A stretch of 36,484 nucleotides of DNA from Planctomycetaceae bacterium (GTDB lineage: Bacteria > Planctomycetota > Planctomycetia > Pirellulales > Pirellulaceae), in NCBI GenBank assembly GCA_002862205.1, contig PKCN01000299.1, positions 1-36,484 of the forward strand, in the 5' to 3' direction. Under the pieces are notes generated by a model, which worked only from the letters and a program-made list of their open reading frames with translations, searched no databases and was not told the origin of the DNA. Shown here piece after piece: positions 7,053 to 25,449 of the stretch; within the stretch, counting starts at the first letter, position 1; the number at the start of each line of letters is the position of its first letter. Made by a program: the position numbers and the translations under genes.

Positions 7053-8489
7053 TTAGTCGAGTAGTTTGTCGCCACTGAAAAATGCATCTTTGAATGCGTC
7101 TCGGTATTCCTGTTCTTCGGTCGGGAAGACGGAATCGAAGGTGGCGGCATCGGCAGCGCCTCGTTGAAATCGCTGTTTGGGGTAGGTCGGCATTTCAATA
7201 CCGGTGACCTGCTGCACTCCCGCGGAGACGATGCTGGCCTTGAGCCCATAGAGTTTTTCGTGGTCCCAATCGGTCAGAGCGACGAATGGGACTTCCTCGG
7301 CAATCTCGATGACATCGGGGACGGCAAAGGGGCTGAACCCGGAGAAACCGAGCATGGCGGCGGGCGCACTTGTTCGTACATGGCCGCGGCTCTGGCCGCC
7401 GCTGTAGACAAGGGAATGTTTGACCGCATCGACTCCCCAGCCTTCCTGATACAGCATTCGGTTTCCAAGCACGCTACGGATCGTGAGTTCCGGGTTTTCC
7501 TCGATTGGGTAATCTTTCAGATTCTCGTCCCCCCCATCACCGTCAATGAGATATTTCCAGTCGGGGTACCGCTGTCTGAGCGTCTTGAGCAAGGCAAGGC
7601 CCATGGTGGCTGATTGGACATCCAGAGGCTTGTAGTCTTCGATGACACGGATGGCGTCTTGCCAGGAGAGGTGCTCGCGTGGGACATCGATCACTTCCAG
7701 ATACACTTCGCGGTCTATTTTTTGCAAAAACTCGCGAGCTTGGACACTGTCACTCGGGTTTCCGTCGACGGCGAGGGTAAATGCTTTGAGACGGGAGGGT
7801 GACTGTCCACGGCGTCGCAGCAGGTAGTCGAGCACGACGAGCACGGCTCCGCTGTCGATTCCGCCACTGAACATCACTCCCAGCGGCTCCGATTCGGGGA
7901 TCATTTCGAGCCACTGGTCACAGACTTCGGCTAGCCTGCCAATGTAGTTTGCACCAATTTCATTAATATTGGCTGGCAAACGATTGCGTTTAGGGGCAAA
8001 AAAACGTGTTAACACGGGATTTGGGTCAGGGCAGCCCACCAGTTGGAGTTCCAGAAGGTGGTGCGCCGGGACCATTCGTGTGTAGGATGGATTAAACTGG
8101 TCGGCGAGGCCTTCCTGCTGCAACTGCTGGGCAATTTCATCAATTCGTTCGGCAATGATCAGGGCGGGGCCCTCAGCTCTTTTGGCAAGGAAATACCGCA
8201 TGGGGCGGCCAATGGAACGCGCCATCCGGATGGTTTTTCCCGCTTGTTCACAGATCGCAAATTGCCCACCAATTCGCCGCACCGCTTCGATGTCTCCGCG
8301 TCGAACCGACGCAGTGGCTTCCTCCAAGCTGGTTCCAAGTAAGATGTTACCGGCGGGGTCGAGAAGATTGACAACACGATCAATCAGCCGCTGTGGTTGC
8401 CCTTGAAAGTTTTGCGGTTGGTCTAGAGTGGAATGTGGCGATTGCGGCGATTGGTCCGAAGAAGCTTCGGGCAATTGGTTTTTTGTCAT
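7053..8489 (-). CDS. Asparagine-synthetase-like enzyme with a Cys-less glutaminase domain
   Basis: A 478-residue protein from ATG 8489; the frame runs on to ATG 8597, but that codon lies inside the intergenic palindrome and the extra 36 residues look non-coding. The N-terminal half resembles the class II amidotransferase domain of AsnB (RRIGGQFAIC, then RSIGRPMRYFL in the position of the usual RDxxGxKPLYY), but there is no Cys after the start Met, so glutamine hydrolysis is not expected. The C-terminal half has the PP-loop FSGGIDSG (207-214) and GDGGDEN (317-323), matching the ATP-pyrophosphatase domain. It should adenylate a carboxylate and join it to ammonia or an amine, as beta-lactam synthetase does. 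It is divergent from the FAAL-ACP-oxoamine synthase gene, which hints at a shared pathway. The real substrate is unknown. Confidence 0.85.
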   Translation of the reverse strand: MTKNQLPEASSDQSPQSPHSTLDQPQNFQGQPQRLIDRVVNLLDPAGNILLGTSLEEATASVRRGDIEAVRRIGGQFAICEQAGKTIRMARSIGRPMRYFLAKRAEGPALIIAERIDEIAQQLQQEGLADQFNPSYTRMVPAHHLLELQLVGCPDPNPVLTRFFAPKRNRLPANINEIGANYIGRLAEVCDQWLEMIPESEPLGVMFSGGIDSGAVLVVLDYLLRRRGQSPSRLKAFTLAVDGNPSDSVQAREFLQKIDREVYLEVIDVPREHLSWQDAIRVIEDYKPLDVQSATMGLALLKTLRQRYPDWKYLIDGDGGDENLKDYPIEENPELTIRSVLGNRMLYQEGWGVDAVKHSLVYSGGQSRGHVRTSAPAAMLGFSGFSPFAVPDVIEIAEEVPFVALTDWDHEKLYGLKASIVSAGVQQVTGIEMPTYPKQRFQRGAADAATFDSVFPTEEQEYRDAFKDAFFSGDKLLD

Positions 8490-8587
8490 GAATCGTCGGG
8501 TAAAACGAGTTGTTCGGGTTGGTTGACGTGTTGAGCAACACCTCAACAGACCTGATAAAGGATACCGAAAATACAATGCGGGGTCTT

Positions 8588-8615
8588 GGATAATCATCTT
8601 GAGTGATCATTATCC
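8588..8615. promoter_or_regulatory. 28-bp imperfect palindrome in the divergent promoter region
   Basis: Arms GGATAATCATCT (8588-8599) and TGATCATTATCC (8604-8615) are complementary at 10 of 12 positions, including an unbroken 7-bp outer block GGATAAT/ATTATCC. It sits in the 253 bp between two divergent starts, where a dimeric regulator could control both genes. Overlapping short inverted repeats (GTGTTG/CAACAC around 8528-8541) lie in the leader on the minus side. No regulator is encoded nearby. Confidence 0.45.
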
Positions 8616-8742: not shown

Positions 8743-11700
8743 GTGACATCCACCGTGGATTTGCATAAATATTTTGGCTCCCAAACGCCTCCCCGAGACA
8801 ATTTTGTTTCGGTGCTTCGTTATTGGGCTGAGCAAAGACCCAACGAAACAGCGTATATCTTTACCGATGTCGAGTCGGTGGAGCAGCGGCTTACTTATTC
8901 ACAATTGTGGGGTGAGGTGCGCGCCTTGGCAGGTTATCTGCAGGGGCGGTGTCGCGTGCGCAGTGGCGACCGTGTCTTACTTGTTTACCCCCCCGGCATG
9001 GATTTTGTGATCGGCTTCTACGCTTGTCATGCCGCTGGCGCGATCGCCGTGCCTGCGTATCCGCCTCGCAGGAATCGTAAAGCGTCGCGAATTCGTTCGA
9101 TTGTTGTCGATGCGGATGCACGCTGGGCGCTGACCACGCAAGCGTTGGCGGAGCAATTGACCGGTGATCGTCCGCATGACGACCTGATTGGCGTGCAATT
9201 GGTGGGCACAGATGACCCGGCAACTCGCGACGCAGATGCTTGGCGGGCACCGAAGATAACGCCCAATACTCTCGCTGTGTTGCAGTACACCTCCGGGTCG
9301 ACCGGTTCACCCAAGGGTGTGATGCTCAATCACTCCAACCTGATCGCAAACAGTGAATTGATTTTGCACGGTTTTGAGCCGCAAGTTGAAATTTGTGGGA
9401 TGAGCTGGCTGCCGACGTACCACGACATGGGCCTTGTGGGAGGTCTTTTGATGCCGTTGTACATTGGACGCAAAAATGTATTGACAAGCCCAATGACATT
9501 TTTGCAACGCCCTGTTCGTTGGTTGCAGGGGATTACCAAATACGGGGTCACGATCAGCGGTGGTCCCAACTTCGCGTTCCAGCTTTGCGTGGATAAGATC
9601 CGCGATCATGAACTTGAAGGGCTTGATCTGTCGACGTGGGAAATCGCTTTCAATGGAGCAGAGCCAATCAGGGCTGCCACTTTGAATTCATTTACCGAAA
9701 AATTTGAAAAGTGCGGCTTTCGTCGATCGGCTTTCCTGCCCTGTTACGGAATGGCTGAAACCACGCTCATTGTCACCGGTGGGCCAGCGGAAACGCGACC
9801 GGTGCTGACCACGTTTGACCGCGGTGGACTGGATGAGAAGATTGTCCGTCCTGTCCTGCCTGATCACCAAAATGCGAGGATGCTGGTTGGTTGTGGTACC
9901 GTGTTGCCCGATGAAAAGGTCATCATTGTTGACCCCAGCACGCGGGAAATTCTTCCCAGTGACAGCATCGGAGAAATTTGGGTGCAAAGTCCTTCGGTGG
10001 GACAGGGATATTACCAACGCAAGGACGCGACGCTTCGCACATTCCATGCGACCACGATTGACGGAGACGGGCCCTACCTTCGAACAGGCGACCTCGGGTT
10101 CCTGTACGAAGGCCAGATTTACATCTCGGGTCGTGTCAAGGACATGATCATTGTCCGTGGCGTTAATCGTTACCCCCAGGACATCGAGGAGACAGTGGAG
10201 AGTTCGAGCGAGGCGGTGCAAGCCGGTTCCGTCGCCGCGTTCGCCATGGACTATGAAGGGCGAGAACAACTGGTCATCGTCGCCGAGACGGTGCGCCGAC
10301 GAAATATAGATGGAGACGGCAATCTGCAGAGGATACGCAGGGCGGTGACCGCTGAGCATGATCTGCCACCCGATGCGGTGTATCTGGTGCGAAATAGCAG
10401 TGTTCCAAAAACCAGCAGTGGCAAGATTCAGCGGCACGCATGCTTGCACGCCGTGCGAGATGGTGATTTGAAACTGGTCGCCAAGTGGGTTCGGTGGGAA
10501 GAGAACAACGAAGCTCGAATGAACTTCGATGCTGCCCCCATGATGCAAGCCGCAGCGGCAGGTGGGCGTTCAGCCGATGTCGACGTCAGCAACGTCAGCC
10601 CAGTGGTGATCGAGGCGATCAAGCATCATGTCAGGCGAGTTGCCGGTGAACGTGCTGCAGCGTTGGACGCTGGGACGAACATTGTGTTGGATCTCGGGCT
10701 GGATAGCCTCGAGCGGTTGGAAATCGCCCGCAAACTGGAAAAAACATTTGAGGGCAGATTCCCCGAGCAGGTTCTCGATGACATAGAGACGATTGGGCAG
10801 ACCGCGTTGGCAATCGAGCGTTATCTTCCTCCGGGGGGAGAAGCACGCGCGGCAGCATTGCTGCGGGGTGAGTTTGTCGATTCTGAAGAAGGTGCCATGG
10901 TGGCCAATCAGGCTCCCGTTGCTCCCGTGGTCGAGGTCGAACCGGAAGACAGTTTTGAGCAGTTTGCAGAGTATCGCCGTCTGAAGACGACGATGCGGCA
11001 AATGCTGATGACAGGGGTTCCCAACCCGTATTTCACGGTCCACGATGGGATCGTGCGAGATCATACCGTGGTCGATGGGAACAAATTGATCAGCTTTGCA
11101 AGTTACAACTATTTGGGGCTTAGCGGGCACCCAACTGTGATGAGCTGTGCGGCTGACGCGATTCACGAATACGGGACCAGTGTTTCGGCTAGCCGCCTGG
11201 TTTCCGGGGAAAAGCCGATTCATGGTGAATTGGAACAGATGATTGCGGACTGGATTGGCGTGGAAAGGTCCATTTTGATGGTGGGCGGACACGCAACCAA
11301 TGAAACCACGATTGGCCACTTGGTCGGTCCCGGCGACCTGATCATTCACGATTCGCTGGCTCACAACAGCATTGTCCAAGGGGCGTTGCTGTCGGGAGCG
11401 CGACGTCGGCCGTTCCCACATAATGATTATGAAGCCCTCGACCGGATGTTGACGGAAATCCGTTCGCAGTACCGCAGGGTACTCATTGCAATTGAAGGCG
11501 TTTACAGCATGGATGGGGACTTTTCTGATGTTCCCAAGTTCATCGAGGTGAAGAAACGACATCGCAGTTTGTTGATGGTCGATGAAGCCCACAGTTTCGG
11601 AACAATGGGTGATACTGGCCGCGGCATGGCGGAGCATTTTGGCATTGACGCCAGAGATGTCGATATTTGGATGGGCACGCTGAGCAAATCGGCCGCGTCC

Positions 11701-12171
11701 TGCGGTGGATACATCGCCGGCTGCAAAGAGTTGATCGAGCTGTTGCGATACACCGCGCCAGGGTTTGTTTTCAGCGTCGGTATGCCCCCGGGACAGGTCG
11801 GTGCAGCTTTGGCTGCCCTGCGGACTCTGGATGCGGAGCCTGAACGAGTTGTGAAGTTGAGGGAGAAAAGTGACTTATTCCTCAGTTTGTGCCGCGAGGC
11901 TGGGCTGGACACCGGTGATAGCGGTGGAACACCTGTGATTCCCGTGATTACGGGGAATTCAATGGTCGCGCTGCGGCTTTCACACCGGCTCAAGGGTGAT
12001 GGCATCAATGTGCAGCCAATCCTCTACCCGGCCGTTGATGAGTCAGCGGCAAGGTTGCGTTTTTTCATCACCTGTGAACATGGTGATGATGAAATTCGCT
12101 TCACCGTTGATCGTACGGCCACTCACCTTGCGGAACTTGGATTTGAAGCGACTCCTGTTTCTGCACAATGA
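8743..12171 (+). CDS. Fused fatty acyl-AMP ligase, acyl carrier protein and alpha-oxoamine synthase
   Basis: A 1142-residue three-domain enzyme. Residues 1 to about 580 are a fatty acyl-AMP ligase: YTSGSTGSPKG (182-192), GGPNFAFQLC, GMAETTL, RTGDLGF, VRGVNRYPQDIE and PKTSSGKIQR. Residues about 620-710 are a carrier domain with LGLDSLE, Ser655 being the phosphopantetheine site. Residues about 745-1140 are a PLP-dependent alpha-oxoamine synthase of the serine palmitoyltransferase/AONS family, with SYNYLGLSGHP, DEAHSFG and Lys982 in GTLSKS. The protein should activate a fatty acid, load it on its own carrier, and condense it with an amino acid, releasing CO2 to give a long-chain amino-ketone. 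The start is GTG 8743 or GTG 8755; AGGCGGTGA at 8738-8746 is a near-perfect ribosome site for the latter. Whether the product is a sphingoid base cannot be read here. Confidence 0.93.
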   Translation: MTSTVDLHKYFGSQTPPRDNFVSVLRYWAEQRPNETAYIFTDVESVEQRLTYSQLWGEVRALAGYLQGRCRVRSGDRVLLVYPPGMDFVIGFYACHAAGAIAVPAYPPRRNRKASRIRSIVVDADARWALTTQALAEQLTGDRPHDDLIGVQLVGTDDPATRDADAWRAPKITPNTLAVLQYTSGSTGSPKGVMLNHSNLIANSELILHGFEPQVEICGMSWLPTYHDMGLVGGLLMPLYIGRKNVLTSPMTFLQRPVRWLQGITKYGVTISGGPNFAFQLCVDKIRDHELEGLDLSTWEIAFNGAEPIRAATLNSFTEKFEKCGFRRSAFLPCYGMAETTLIVTGGPAETRPVLTTFDRGGLDEKIVRPVLPDHQNARMLVGCGTVLPDEKVIIVDPSTREILPSDSIGEIWVQSPSVGQGYYQRKDATLRTFHATTIDGDGPYLRTGDLGFLYEGQIYISGRVKDMIIVRGVNRYPQDIEETVESSSEAVQAGSVAAFAMDYEGREQLVIVAETVRRRNIDGDGNLQRIRRAVTAEHDLPPDAVYLVRNSSVPKTSSGKIQRHACLHAVRDGDLKLVAKWVRWEENNEARMNFDAAPMMQAAAAGGRSADVDVSNVSPVVIEAIKHHVRRVAGERAAALDAGTNIVLDLGLDSLERLEIARKLEKTFEGRFPEQVLDDIETIGQTALAIERYLPPGGEARAAALLRGEFVDSEEGAMVANQAPVAPVVEVEPEDSFEQFAEYRRLKTTMRQMLMTGVPNPYFTVHDGIVRDHTVVDGNKLISFASYNYLGLSGHPTVMSCAADAIHEYGTSVSASRLVSGEKPIHGELEQMIADWIGVERSILMVGGHATNETTIGHLVGPGDLIIHDSLAHNSIVQGALLSGARRRPFPHNDYEALDRMLTEIRSQYRRVLIAIEGVYSMDGDFSDVPKFIEVKKRHRSLLMVDEAHSFGTMGDTGRGMAEHFGIDARDVDIWMGTLSKSAASCGGYIAGCKELIELLRYTAPGFVFSVGMPPGQVGAALAALRTLDAEPERVVKLREKSDLFLSLCREAGLDTGDSGGTPVIPVITGNSMVALRLSHRLKGDGINVQPILYPAVDESAARLRFFITCEHGDDEIRFTVDRTATHLAELGFEATPVSAQ

Positions 12172-12646: not shown

Positions 12647-13828
12647 TCAGTGGTTGAAGTTCAAGCCAAAGGTTGCTCCGAACATGAACACGCCTTGGTC
12701 TTTGGCTCCGCCTGCAAACGCATTTCTGCCTTCGCCGCCTCGCCACACGCCGCTGCCGATTTGGATGGCTTGCATACCCGTTCGTACTGCGAACATCCGG
12801 CTCAGCTGGTAGCTCAGTTCTGCTCGGACATCATAACCGTAGTAGAATTCCGAGTTCTTGGTGTAAAGCGGATTGGTCGCGATCGTCGCCATGGATGTAA
12901 CTTCGGCACCCACACTATCATCTTCGTACTGCGTGTACTCTCTGATATTCTGATAGCTCGACGATTGCCAGTTCCCGCCAAAGAATGCTCGGAACTCAGT
13001 GGACAGAACATAGCGATCGTGTGGTTTGAAGTAGCGGAAGCCAATCTGACCACCGAACATGTCGTTCAGAGTGACGTTCTTGTCCGTCGTCAGTTCCTCG
13101 AAGATCGGTTCAGGCACAGGGTCTGGTGGAGGAGGTGGATAGATACTGCTGTTGTAGGCATTGAATGAGTTGACGTCTCTGAGTTTCATGTAGCGTATAC
13201 CGATCAGAGGTTCCACGATTCCCCCGTAGTGATACGGAGTCATCCGCCAAGTCTTGTTCAGTTCATAACCCTGATACTGGAATACGTTCTGCGTTTCCCC
13301 AACATTGTAGAACCGGAAGTTGTAACCAATGTTGTTAGCCTCTGAGAGGCGGACCGGGAATCCGAACGGTGGAGATTGTGGGGGATAATCGGGTGGTGGC
13401 TCGCCTGGTTCCGCAGGTGGGATATATCGGTTTACTCTCTCCTGCCTGACGGTGTCAGCCGCGAGCACATTGAGTTTCGTCCAATTGAACATCCAACCGT
13501 GCTTGTCGCCCGGTAGCATGAAGCCGATCTCGTAGCGGTTTCCCCAACCGCTATCGAGCCTGTTCTCGCCGGTGTCAGGTTTGGCCAGATCAGGCCTGCC
13601 GGCGTACAGATTGAGCCGATCGTAGGTTGCGAACCATCCGGTATGAGCCCGTTTTTCAGGCTTCATATCAATAAGATCCAAGTCGTACACTGGTTCGAAC
13701 CAGCGAAAATCCGGATCAAATTCGAAGGGGTCGACCACGTTTACTGGGTCTTTGGCGTCCGCAACCGCAGCACCGCCCAGAAGAGCCAGGGCCGCCAGTA
13801 CACTTGAAGCCAGCTTCCTTACCGACAT
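12647..13828 (-). CDS. Outer-membrane beta-barrel protein of planctomycete type
   Basis: A 393-residue exported protein. I start it at ATG 13828, where GGTGGA lies about 7 bases upstream; a GTG 12 bases earlier is the only alternative. The signal peptide (SVRKLASSVLAALALLGGAAVADA) is followed by a long stretch of alternating aromatic and polar residues with frequent W/Y/F and Gly, as in transmembrane strands. The product ends GATFGLNFNH, a C-terminal amphipathic strand that suits barrel insertion. A Pro-rich loop (PPAEPGEPPPDYPPQSPP) and another (PPPPPDPVPEP) probably face outward. I recognise the general look of planctomycete BBP7-like barrel proteins, but no function is known. The gene is monocistronic, ending at the shared terminator. 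Confidence 0.8.
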   Translation of the reverse strand: MSVRKLASSVLAALALLGGAAVADAKDPVNVVDPFEFDPDFRWFEPVYDLDLIDMKPEKRAHTGWFATYDRLNLYAGRPDLAKPDTGENRLDSGWGNRYEIGFMLPGDKHGWMFNWTKLNVLAADTVRQERVNRYIPPAEPGEPPPDYPPQSPPFGFPVRLSEANNIGYNFRFYNVGETQNVFQYQGYELNKTWRMTPYHYGGIVEPLIGIRYMKLRDVNSFNAYNSSIYPPPPPDPVPEPIFEELTTDKNVTLNDMFGGQIGFRYFKPHDRYVLSTEFRAFFGGNWQSSSYQNIREYTQYEDDSVGAEVTSMATIATNPLYTKNSEFYYGYDVRAELSYQLSRMFAVRTGMQAIQIGSGVWRGGEGRNAFAGGAKDQGVFMFGATFGLNFNH

Positions 13829-13896
13829 CGCTTGTTCCACCGTCTTGCAGTTAATTTTGCGGTAGAGTCCGGCGTTGAACCGAGTTCTACCTCCCT

Positions 13897-23774: not shown

Positions 23775-24565
23775 CACTCTGTCCCCGTCTGCGTTGGTGG
23801 AAAGTAATGATCGACCTGTTGACTGAGTTTGGAAGGTGCTGGCATCCCGTTGAGGAATGATGACCAACTCGGCGGAAGGGGGGCTTCAAACCACATGGGG
23901 ACGTGTTTTGTCGGATGTTCGATTTGGAGTCGCCAACTGTGCAGGGCGATGCCCACTTTGAATTTTGTTTTTGATCCATACTTGCGATCGCCCAACACGG
24001 GATGATCGCGATCGGCCAACTGTGTCCTGATTTGGTGCTTGCGTCCGGTCAGTAATTCCACCGCGAGGGTGGTATTGGCCTGGTTTTTTGTCAGTACCTG
24101 ATAACGAAGTTCAGCCGTCTGTGTATCGGGACGCACGTTGGGACTCAGCCGCATTCGATGGGCCGCTTCGTCTTTGCGAATCTGGTCAGACCAGTGGTCC
24201 GCTTCGGCATCCAGCCTGCCTTGCACTACGGTGAGGTAGATTTTTCGAGGTGCAGCGACCGGCCTTTTCTTCCCTTTTGGCTTCTGGGTACCGTCGGCTT
24301 TCAATGCCTTGCTGGCAAACTGGGCCGTTAGTCGTGACGCTGCCTTGCTGGTGCGCGCCAGCACGAGCACTCCGCTTGTCATGGCATCGAGCCTGCTGAC
24401 GATGCCGACAAAAACCCGACCAGGTTTACCGCAACTCTGTTTGATGTACTGGGCGGCAAGTGAGTGTACCGTGGGACCTGATTCCGATCCCATGGTGGGT
24501 AATCCAGCGGGCTTGTTCACCACTAGCAGGTGGTTGTCTTCGAACAGAATTTCCAAGTCTGACAT
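23774..24565 (-). CDS. RluA-family pseudouridine synthase
   Basis: A 263-residue RluA-type enzyme that isomerises uridine in rRNA or tRNA. NHLLVVNKPAGLPT (about 11-24) and the catalytic motif SRLDAMTSG with Asp60 are clear; the family normally has HRLD, so Ser replaces His here. The RNA-binding core ELLTGRKHQIRTQLA and HPVLGDRKYG are conserved, as is IALHSWRL. The insertion KADGTQKPKGKKRP (about 85-101) is a charged loop. It lacks an S4 domain, like the shorter members. Its ATG overlaps the SDR stop by one base (TGATG). Target position cannot be assigned from sequence. Confidence 0.93.
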   Translation of the reverse strand: MSDLEILFEDNHLLVVNKPAGLPTMGSESGPTVHSLAAQYIKQSCGKPGRVFVGIVSRLDAMTSGVLVLARTSKAASRLTAQFASKALKADGTQKPKGKKRPVAAPRKIYLTVVQGRLDAEADHWSDQIRKDEAAHRMRLSPNVRPDTQTAELRYQVLTKNQANTTLAVELLTGRKHQIRTQLADRDHPVLGDRKYGSKTKFKVGIALHSWRLQIEHPTKHVPMWFEAPLPPSWSSFLNGMPAPSKLSQQVDHYFPPTQTGTE

Positions 24566-25449
24566 CAGTGGTTATCCGGATTGGAAGCATCAGTTGGTTT
24601 GTCAGGGTGCTGTTTGTCGGAACGCTGTTTGTCGGAACGCTGTTTGTCGGAACGCTGTTTGTCGGAACGCTGTGCCAGAATCGCATTCATCAGCGAGGGG
24701 GCAAGCCGATCGGCGTACACAAGCGTCTTGCCACCCCAACTCAGAATCACTTCACTGCGACGTTTCCGGATTGCGCGGTAGGCCCGATCGGCAACACGCT
24801 GGGGAGACCAGTGACCCAAACTGCTCGAAGATTGGTTGGGATCGGTTTGAATCAGAGAATCGAAAAATTCACTCTTGGTGGTGCTGGGGCTGACAAGAGT
24901 GACTTGAATCCCCGCTGAGGCAAGTTCTGCTCTCAAAGAGTCGCTCCAGCCGTGCATGGCAAATTTGCTGGCACAATATTCACTCTTGTCGGGGACTGCC
25001 CGGTGTCCAAGCACGCTGCTGATATTGCAGATCACGGGGGATGATCCTCGGTGCAGAGCAGGCAACAAATTACGGGTCAATTCGACAGGAGCGAAGAAAT
25101 TGACTTCCATGATTTGTCGCAGGCGGTCGGGGGTAGCGTCTGCGAATTTGCCAATGCCGCCAATTCCAGCATTGTTGACCAGCAGATCGAGCTTGCCAGC
25201 GTGATGGGTTTCAATCATGGAACGAACCGCGAGGCGTACATCCTTGTCCGTAATGTCGCCAGCTAAGGGTGTGACACCTCCAAATTTGGTGTGGTCATGG
25301 GAGGCAGACCATTGGCAGATCCGTTCAGCCCGTCGTGCGACTGCAATGACATGGCAACCGTTGTCGGCGAGCAGTTGTGTCAAGCATTTGCCGATACCAC
25401 TGCTGGCACCTGTCACAACGGCGACCGAATCCTTGGCTTTCCACGGCAT
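24565..25449 (-). CDS. Short-chain dehydrogenase/reductase
   Basis: A classical SDR with an NAD(P)-binding Rossmann fold: TGASSGIG (13-20), NNAG (92-95), and the catalytic Ser145, Tyr158 and Lys162 (YCASK). The RR pair at 39-40 after the second strand suggests NADPH. Up to about residue 260 it looks like a normal SDR of fatty-acid or lipid type. The last 30 residues are a low-complexity tail with four RSDKQ copies (261-280) encoded by a 15-bp tandem repeat, which probably does not touch the active site. It is first in a tightly overlapped operon with the pseudouridine synthase and the molybdenum-carrier-like gene. Substrate unknown. Confidence 0.93.
   Translation of the reverse strand: MPWKAKDSVAVVTGASSGIGKCLTQLLADNGCHVIAVARRAERICQWSASHDHTKFGGVTPLAGDITDKDVRLAVRSMIETHHAGKLDLLVNNAGIGGIGKFADATPDRLRQIMEVNFFAPVELTRNLLPALHRGSSPVICNISSVLGHRAVPDKSEYCASKFAMHGWSDSLRAELASAGIQVTLVSPSTTKSEFFDSLIQTDPNQSSSSLGHWSPQRVADRAYRAIRKRRSEVILSWGGKTLVYADRLAPSLMNAILAQRSDKQRSDKQRSDKQRSDKQHPDKPTDASNPDNH
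24609..24668. repeat. 15-bp tandem repeat, 4 perfect units inside the SDR 3' end
   Basis: Four identical units GCTGTTTGTCGGAAC at 24609, 24624, 24639 and 24654. On the minus strand they encode RSDKQ repeats at the C-terminus of the reductase. Identity of all units suggests recent slippage or selection. Confidence 0.95.

Follow-up and report, generated by a model that had tools for sequence, protein, structure and literature searches.

A single-chain fatty acyl-AMP ligase-carrier protein-alpha-oxoamine synthase fusion as a candidate sphingoid-base synthase of Pirellulaceae

Organisation of the fusion gene and its domains

We analysed a 36,484-nt contig (PKCN01000299.1; the whole stretch is called the window below) from assembly GCA_002862205.1 of a Planctomycetaceae bacterium of the family Pirellulaceae. 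It is contig C49 of a 7.77-Mb assembly (genome G000) that is 98.73% complete. The forward strand of the window carries an open reading frame (ORF) whose product combines a fatty acyl-AMP ligase (FAAL), an acyl carrier protein (ACP) and a pyridoxal 5′-phosphate (PLP)-dependent alpha-oxoamine synthase (AOS). An earlier account made from the letters of this DNA, the sequence-only reading, had proposed that this chain turns a free fatty acid and an amino acid into an amino-ketone. The features of the gene are as follows.

8743..12171, + strand: FAAL-ACP-alpha-oxoamine synthase, a single polypeptide of 1142 amino acids with a GTG start, stop codon included (ORF, Pfam and motif search)
8800..10488, + strand: fatty acyl-AMP ligase domain, residues 20-582 (Pfam; PDB match 7r7f, 537 bits; motifs)
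9745..9975, + strand: A5 through GEIW, the part that includes the FAAL-type insertion; the two motifs are 70 residues apart (aligned with 7r7f)
10615..10806, + strand: acyl carrier protein domain, residues 625-688, with the phosphopantetheine site Ser655 at 10705-10707 (Pfam PP-binding)
11065..12114, + strand: PLP-dependent alpha-oxoamine synthase domain, residues 775-1124, with Lys982 at 11686-11688 (Pfam; PDB; column comparison; trees)

Four Pfam domains were found in the fusion protein, all above their gathering cut-offs: AMP-binding at residues 26-424 (233 bits), AMP-dom_DIP2-like, which is the FAAL/DIP2-like C-terminal subdomain, at 467-578 (38 bits), PP-binding at 625-688 (37 bits) and Aminotran_1_2 at 781-1119 (135 bits). 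The three activities that the sequence-only reading had placed on one chain are thus each represented by a domain with intact motifs, and the three Pfam families it had named (AMP-binding, PP-binding and Aminotran_1_2) are all present. String matching located the adenylation motifs A3 (YTSGSTGSPKG, 182-192), A5 (YGMAETT, 335-341), A7 (YLRTGDLGF, 445-453), A8 (GRVKD.., 463-482) and A10 (PKTSSGK, 555-561), the catalytic lysine included.

The best solved relatives of the adenylation domain in the PDB are 7r7f, whose molecule name is 'Polyketide synthase' (537 bits), 3kxw (413 bits), FadD23 (321 bits) and FadD32 (312 bits). The spacing from A5 to GEI is 70 residues in the fusion vs. 43 in two acyl ligases of the same genome (L005 and L007); of three further ligase loci, L006 gave a spurious anchor (109), the A5 motif is missing at L008, and L004 yielded no usable ORF. 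The insertion stretch is co-linear with the FAAL 7r7f, the gaps being two of one residue each. On the strength of these solved relatives and the insertion, we assign the adenylation domain to the FAALs, as far as sequence can tell.

Ser655 lies within GLDSLE and is invariant across ten aligned sequences, those of the window and of nine relatives 73-95% identical to it, and Lys982 lies within GTLSKS; both sites fall exactly at the positions that had been named for the carrier and the condensing enzyme. The PLP domain further contains SYNYLG (787-792), ASR (816-818), His874, Asp947, His950 and Arg1106. In an alignment column comparison, Lys982, His874, Asp947, His950 and Arg1106 matched the reference columns, and we take these residues to be the PLP lysine, the stacking histidine, the aspartate and histidine of the PLP site, and the arginine that binds the carboxylate, respectively. 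Among solved structures, the serine palmitoyltransferase (SPT) 3a2b matches the PLP domain with 221 bits. AlphaFold2 run on the whole chain with nine close relatives gave no usable model (mean pLDDT 38.4, pTM 0.29).

Phylogenetic place of the PLP domain

Trees were built from 47 and from 55 sequences, the larger leaving out L074_o3 (identical to the Roseomonas sequence) and L062_o2 (near-identical to that of Sinorhizobium meliloti). In both, the PLP domain of the fusion is found in a clade of oxoamine synthases linked to polyketide synthases (PKSs), with support of 100/100 (47 sequences) and 100/99 (55 sequences). We refer to this clade as SgaB-type, after SgaAB of Pseudomonas fluorescens MYb115, a type I PKS and an alpha-oxoamine synthase (PMC12134224). 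The clusters of its members from Pseudomonas, Caballeronia and Sinorhizobium include a gene for a reducing PKS, and in other members the PKS and the AOS are on one chain: as ketosynthase-acyltransferase-ACP-AOS (KS-AT-ACP-AOS) in Streptomyces anthocyanicus, and with a reducing PKS module in Planktothrix and in another Pirellulaceae genome (G205).

Among the plasmid relatives compared, the PLP domain is most similar to the Streptomyces KS-AT-ACP-AOS protein (58% identity) and to a protein of Pseudomonas TMW 2.1634 (56%). The cluster of the latter consists of a PKS, an AOS and, five locus tags on, a short-chain dehydrogenase/reductase (SDR), a spacing equal to that of the published SgaABC cluster (PfSgaA RS19805, PfSgaB RS19800, PfSgaC RS19775). 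PfSgaB is a proven L-serine palmitoyltransferase with a near-exclusive preference for L-Ser vs. Ala and Gly, and it condenses acyl-coenzyme A (acyl-CoA) surrogates (PMC12134224).

As to the wider family, a branch of the 55-sequence tree with support of 95/91 parts the SPTs, plant LCB2a and the SgaB clade, window protein included, from BioF, Kbl, HemA, ThAOS and a Burkholderia enzyme. In approximately unbiased (AU) tests, joining the SgaB clade with BioF alone was rejected (p 0.011), as was joining it with Kbl alone (p 0.029). Column comparison revealed SPT-like residues in the PLP domain, namely SYNYLG as in LCB2a, ASR, DEAHS and TLSKS. Ser817 is aligned with the S. multivorum residue that, we assume, contacts the serine hydroxyl; the ASR motif is present also in Azospirillum BioF.

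Distribution in Pirellulaceae and other planctomycetes

Searches with the fusion as query gave matches in 192 of 199 Pirellulaceae genomes at E ≤ 1e-90, a tally of any match that a single domain can reach, and all 68 of the 68 genera had a match. Among the 150 matches listed, at least 142 of the 199 genomes were matched at full length (covered from residue ≤20 to ≥1120), and seven more had shorter matches only. Among named records, the closest belong to Rhodopirellula and Rubripirellula (15 loci, 73-96% identity over the best segment). Most are metagenome-assembled genomes (MAGs), with Rubripirellula obstinata CECT 8602 and Stieleria sedimenti ICT_E10.1 also in the set. Given relatives 73-95% identical to it and the number of full-length copies in the family, the fusion is not a product of chance.

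Related architectures were seen elsewhere in the phylum. Genome G205 encodes, besides a FAAL-ACP-oxoamine synthase, a chain with a reducing PKS module, an ACP and an SgaB-type oxoamine synthase (L080:3519-11219). Genome G121 has a second FAAL-ACP-oxoamine synthase (L079:7624-10950) with its PLP domain in the clade of a Streptomyces enzyme. In four genomes of another family, f28, a ligase is fused to an ACP and an oxoamine synthase (L081:4686-7982, L082:6275-9595, L083:6259-9669 and L084:9744-13001). In L081, the one f28 fusion scanned with NCBIfam, no FAAL model was among the 25 models listed, and its ligase is not FAAL-like. The f28 fusions are probably independent in origin, and we read these three-part fusions, together with the second G121 paralogue, as separate origins. 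A survey of Black Sea metagenomes reported 138 Planctomycetota MAGs with Spt-like proteins, and the section concerned makes no mention of such fusions (PMC11334938).

Candidate genes for the remaining steps

We found three oxoamine synthases in the genome to which the window belongs. Apart from the fusion, one groups with Kbl (100/100) and one, on contig C27, with BioF (97/57) in the 55-sequence tree, which leaves the fusion as the only SPT candidate found in this genome. The copy in the Kbl clade adjoins a gene read as threonine dehydrogenase.

Two homologues of the ceramide N-acyltransferase YghO/Aca are encoded in the same genome, on contigs other than that of the fusion. They show 41% and 36% identity to a YghO-like protein of Rahnella, which in turn shares 81% identity with a gene annotated yghO on an E. 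coli plasmid. The genes yghO and CC_1154 are listed as aca, required for dihydroceramide (PMC9386255). Directly after the second of the two YghO-like genes (L131:5352-7958, contig C46) a ketosynthase-like protein is encoded.

Across the phylum, a YghO-like gene (E ≤ 1e-40) was detected in 103 of 294 genomes, and in at least 27 of those 103 an oxoamine synthase is encoded no more than 1 kb away from it. Ten of these adjacent synthases were placed in the 55-sequence tree and all ten fell among the classical SPTs, which supports the use of YghO as a marker of ceramide synthesis in the phylum. Of 60 Pirellulaceae genomes, 59 had YghO-like genes, whereas none of the 16 from f3, another family in their class, had one.

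Gene neighbourhood

The genes identified near the fusion are an asparagine-synthase-like gene and genes for a protein with a sub-threshold BBP7 match, TadA, PurK, PurE and UvrD, none of which fits the pathway. Scans of the window and of the relatives' loci thus agree with the sequence-only reading, which had noted no ketoreductase or acyltransferase beside the gene. A dedicated biosynthetic gene cluster is ruled out, as the neighbours kept are mostly housekeeping genes; no biotin genes were among the neighbours scanned.

Positions 7053-8597 (- strand) encode the asparagine-synthase-like protein, divergent from the fusion, in which Pfam finds the synthase domain only, with no glutaminase domain; 10 of 18 loci, all from close relatives, have it next to the fusion. 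The gene at 12647-13840 (- strand) is convergent with the fusion, and its product has a sub-threshold match to BBP7, a putative outer-membrane barrel (22.6 of the 26 bits needed). Its family adjoins the fusion in 13 of 18 loci, among them those of G121 and G205, which are more distant; the copy in G121 has no Pfam match. Three more distant relatives have a TIM-barrel isomerase-like gene beside the fusion, with no fit to the pathway. An SDR encoded at 24565-25449 (- strand), 12 kb from the fusion, is 27% identical to an SgaC-like reductase; being one of 12 such matches in the genome, it is no special candidate.

Proposed reaction sequence and its support

We propose that the fusion is a single-chain equivalent of the separate proteins AasR (an acyl-ACP synthetase), AcpR and SPT, making 3-oxosphinganine from free fatty acid, ATP and L-serine without CoA, and we put the probability of this reading at about 0.7. 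The PLP enzymes of the alpha-oxoamine family are dimers, which might let the ACP act with the second subunit as well. The FAAL domain would activate a free fatty acid at the expense of ATP, and the acyl group would be handed to the Ser655-bound phosphopantetheine of the adjoining ACP, CoA being rejected as an acceptor. FAALs are described as refusing CoA and loading holo-ACP (PMC8460268). The PLP domain, with Lys982, would then bind L-serine and condense it with the ACP-bound acyl chain, releasing CO2 and 3-oxosphinganine. N-acylation by a YghO/Aca family enzyme and reduction, both encoded by unlinked genes, would lead to dihydroceramide. Because the three partners share one chain, the fatty acid would be committed to the base at once. 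The enzyme would thus pair an SPT domain of the polyketide-linked SgaB type with a FAAL in place of the PKS of its relatives. L-serine is our best guess for the amino acid, based on the SgaB clade, in which PfSgaB is the member with a demonstrated L-Ser preference. The amino-ketone reading is thereby supported and narrowed, both by the clade and by the N-acyltransferase homologues in the genome. The domains, motifs, clade, conservation and co-occurrence are observations; from them we infer serine as the substrate, acyl transfer inside the chain, the product and the steps after it.

Several results weigh against this reading. PfSgaB is absent from the trees, where the Pseudomonas TMW 2.1634 protein was taken as its proxy on the basis of gene order. 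The branch uniting the SgaB clade with the SPTs is weak in the 47-sequence tree (77/48), and the AU test did not reject a tree in which BioF, Kbl, HemA and their neighbours join the SgaB clade and the classical SPTs stand apart (p 0.17). The comparison with SPT, 8-amino-7-oxononanoate synthase (BioF), Kbl and HemA, through which the sequence-only reading had sought to place the oxoamine domain, therefore gave a firm SgaB-type clade and rejected BioF or Kbl as sole sister, and it did not reject the wider grouping with BioF, Kbl and HemA together. At the position of Ser817 the Streptomyces relative has an alanine. The NCBIfam SPT models NF047600, NF047599 and NF047603 scored below their cut-offs (291.5 of 640, 256.8 of 500 and 194.4 of 670 bits), and the top model for the PLP part was bioF (TIGR00858), yet it too stayed below its cut-off (337.6 vs. 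426.45 bits). The SgaB-like Pseudomonas protein gave the same pattern (bioF 332.5 bits; SPT 277.8 and 260.5 bits, likewise below cut-off), from which it follows that the models do not cover the SgaB branch.

The genomic context has adverse points of its own. No pathway gene is clustered with the fusion in the window or in the relatives' loci scanned, and no single ketoreductase candidate stands out in the genome, where 12 SDRs match an SgaC-like query (best 30% identity) and two match a CerR-like query (best 29%). In family f3, 7 of 16 genomes had some match to the fusion search; no fused protein was among the matches listed, which do not include those of four genomes (G194, G216, G257 and G291), so absence of the fusion from f3 is not established. 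The co-occurrence of YghO and the fusion inside one family amounts to about one event.

Alternative interpretations

The alternative that survives best, though we consider it unlikely, is that the chain uses alanine or glycine and releases 1-deoxy-type long-chain aminoketones (3-amino-2-alkanones or 1-amino-2-alkanones), which would act as lipids of the membrane or as signals. Alpha-oxoamine synthases are a versatile family, and the unrejected grouping with BioF, Kbl and HemA as well as the top rank of the bioF model would be in keeping with such substrates. Against these stand the firm placement in the SgaB-type clade, where PfSgaB is near-exclusive for L-Ser (PMC12134224), the SPT-like residues of the substrate site and the YghO homologues, which fit a ceramide.

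It is also quite improbable that the fusion provides the starter of a small secondary metabolite, with the released aminoketone being modified to a natural product instead of entering the membrane. Near relatives of the PLP domain are fused to, or lie beside, PKSs, and polyketide and lipopeptide clusters typically contain FAALs that feed ACPs (PMC8460268). For such a product a patchy distribution would be expected, whereas the full-length protein occurs in at least 142 of the 199 family genomes; its neighbours, where identified, mostly have housekeeping roles, with no tailoring cluster conserved beside it. A stand-alone gene maintained across a family points rather to a lipid in general use.

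Very little speaks for cysteate as the amino acid, which would give a sulfonolipid precursor of the 3-ketocapnine type. The cysteate C-fatty acyltransferase 28eh is a relative of the PLP domain (168 bits), and in Legionella lytica a FAAL-ACP-ComA protein adjoins an oxoamine synthase. The PLP domain of the fusion nevertheless lies outside the clade of the Legionella enzyme in the 55-sequence tree, and a sulfonolipid route via ComA was discarded, the window genome having no match to PF02679 in a search that was positive in 2 of 14 genomes as a control; other cysteate routes were not searched for. The Legionella gene itself (L058:9124-12036, plasmid NZ_CP071528.1) encodes a FAAL-ACP fused to phosphosulfolactate synthase (ComA) and is located between a separate oxoamine synthase gene and one for 2-phosphosulfolactate phosphatase, a possible cysteate/sulfonolipid route.

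An 8-amino-7-oxononanoate synthase making biotin from a free pimelate-like acid, a reading favoured by bioF being the highest NCBIfam model, was rejected on the strength of tree, score and neighbourhood: the model stays below its cut-off, the BioF clade is rejected (AU p 0.011), the C27 copy groups with BioF in its stead, and the firm clustering with BioF beside a biotin operon that the sequence-only reading had named as its refutation did not occur, the neighbours being housekeeping genes.

Significance and comparison with known systems

Given the fusion in most sampled genomes of the family, our results suggest that Pirellulaceae make sphingolipids by a route that standard annotation misses. 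If so, a family not linked to sphingolipids in the papers found would make their backbone with one protein from fatty acid, ATP and serine; this would add a family-wide source of bacterial sphingolipids and explain why searches with SPT cut-offs miss it. The protein would also offer a compact enzyme for biocatalysis and an example of the CoA-free commitment of a free fatty acid to one lipid. We see about even odds for a wider statement: that membranes throughout the family have sphingolipids as a core component, made by the single-chain enzyme from free, possibly scavenged, fatty acids kept off CoA and passed on within one molecule, that surveys relying on SPT cut-offs overlook the polyketide-type branch, and that fusions of this three-part kind arose more than once in Planctomycetota. 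In the open-licence literature no paper on a single-chain FAAL-ACP-oxoamine synthase could be recognised by title or abstract, which does not establish its absence from print. Judged from domain content, this one planctomycete protein combines three sphingoid-base enzyme parts that are separate proteins in other bacteria.

Two loci of the SgaB-type clade deserve description. On a plasmid of Streptomyces anthocyanicus (L065:8308-13131) the KS-AT-ACP-oxoamine synthase chain is encoded near an MMPL transporter gene. On pSymB of Sinorhizobium meliloti (L068:4334-14097) a reducing PKS, an SgaB-type oxoamine synthase and an SDR lie beside capsule genes; this locus resembles what we take to be the rkp capsule region, which would imply a sphingoid-like product.

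The closest known system is the split trio AasR-AcpR-SPT of Proteobacteria, in Caulobacter CC_1165, CC_1163 and CC_1162 (PMC9386255), and the contrast that the sequence-only reading had drawn with separate Caulobacter proteins holds. The fusion would perform the same three activities in the same order, leading a free fatty acid via a dedicated ACP to decarboxylative condensation with serine and bypassing CoA. It differs from the trio in being one polypeptide, in having a PLP domain of another clade and in the unlinked position of the reductase and N-acyltransferase genes. In Rahnella and Pseudomonas plasmid operons, FAAL, epimerase, ACP and SPT-like enzyme are likewise four separate genes. With SgaAB the fusion shares the clade of its PLP domain, as reflected in its identity to the Pseudomonas TMW protein; its acyl chain, unlike that of SgaAB, would come from a free fatty acid via the FAAL and not from an iterative PKS, and its ACP and PLP domain share one polypeptide. 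The PKS-AOS fusions of Streptomyces anthocyanicus, Planktothrix and G205 also have an ACP fused upstream of an SgaB-type oxoamine synthase, with PKS domains where the window protein has its FAAL.

A last parallel is found in the FAAL-ACP starters of PKS and non-ribosomal peptide synthetase lines, where, as here, a FAAL with the insertion feeds a fused ACP (PMC8460268). As further partners of FAALs that source names dehydrogenases, oxygenases, acyl transferases and reductases, and its main text contains neither the word 'aminotransferase' nor 'PLP'. The window protein couples its FAAL-ACP unit to a PLP enzyme, where those lines have a ketosynthase or a condensation domain.

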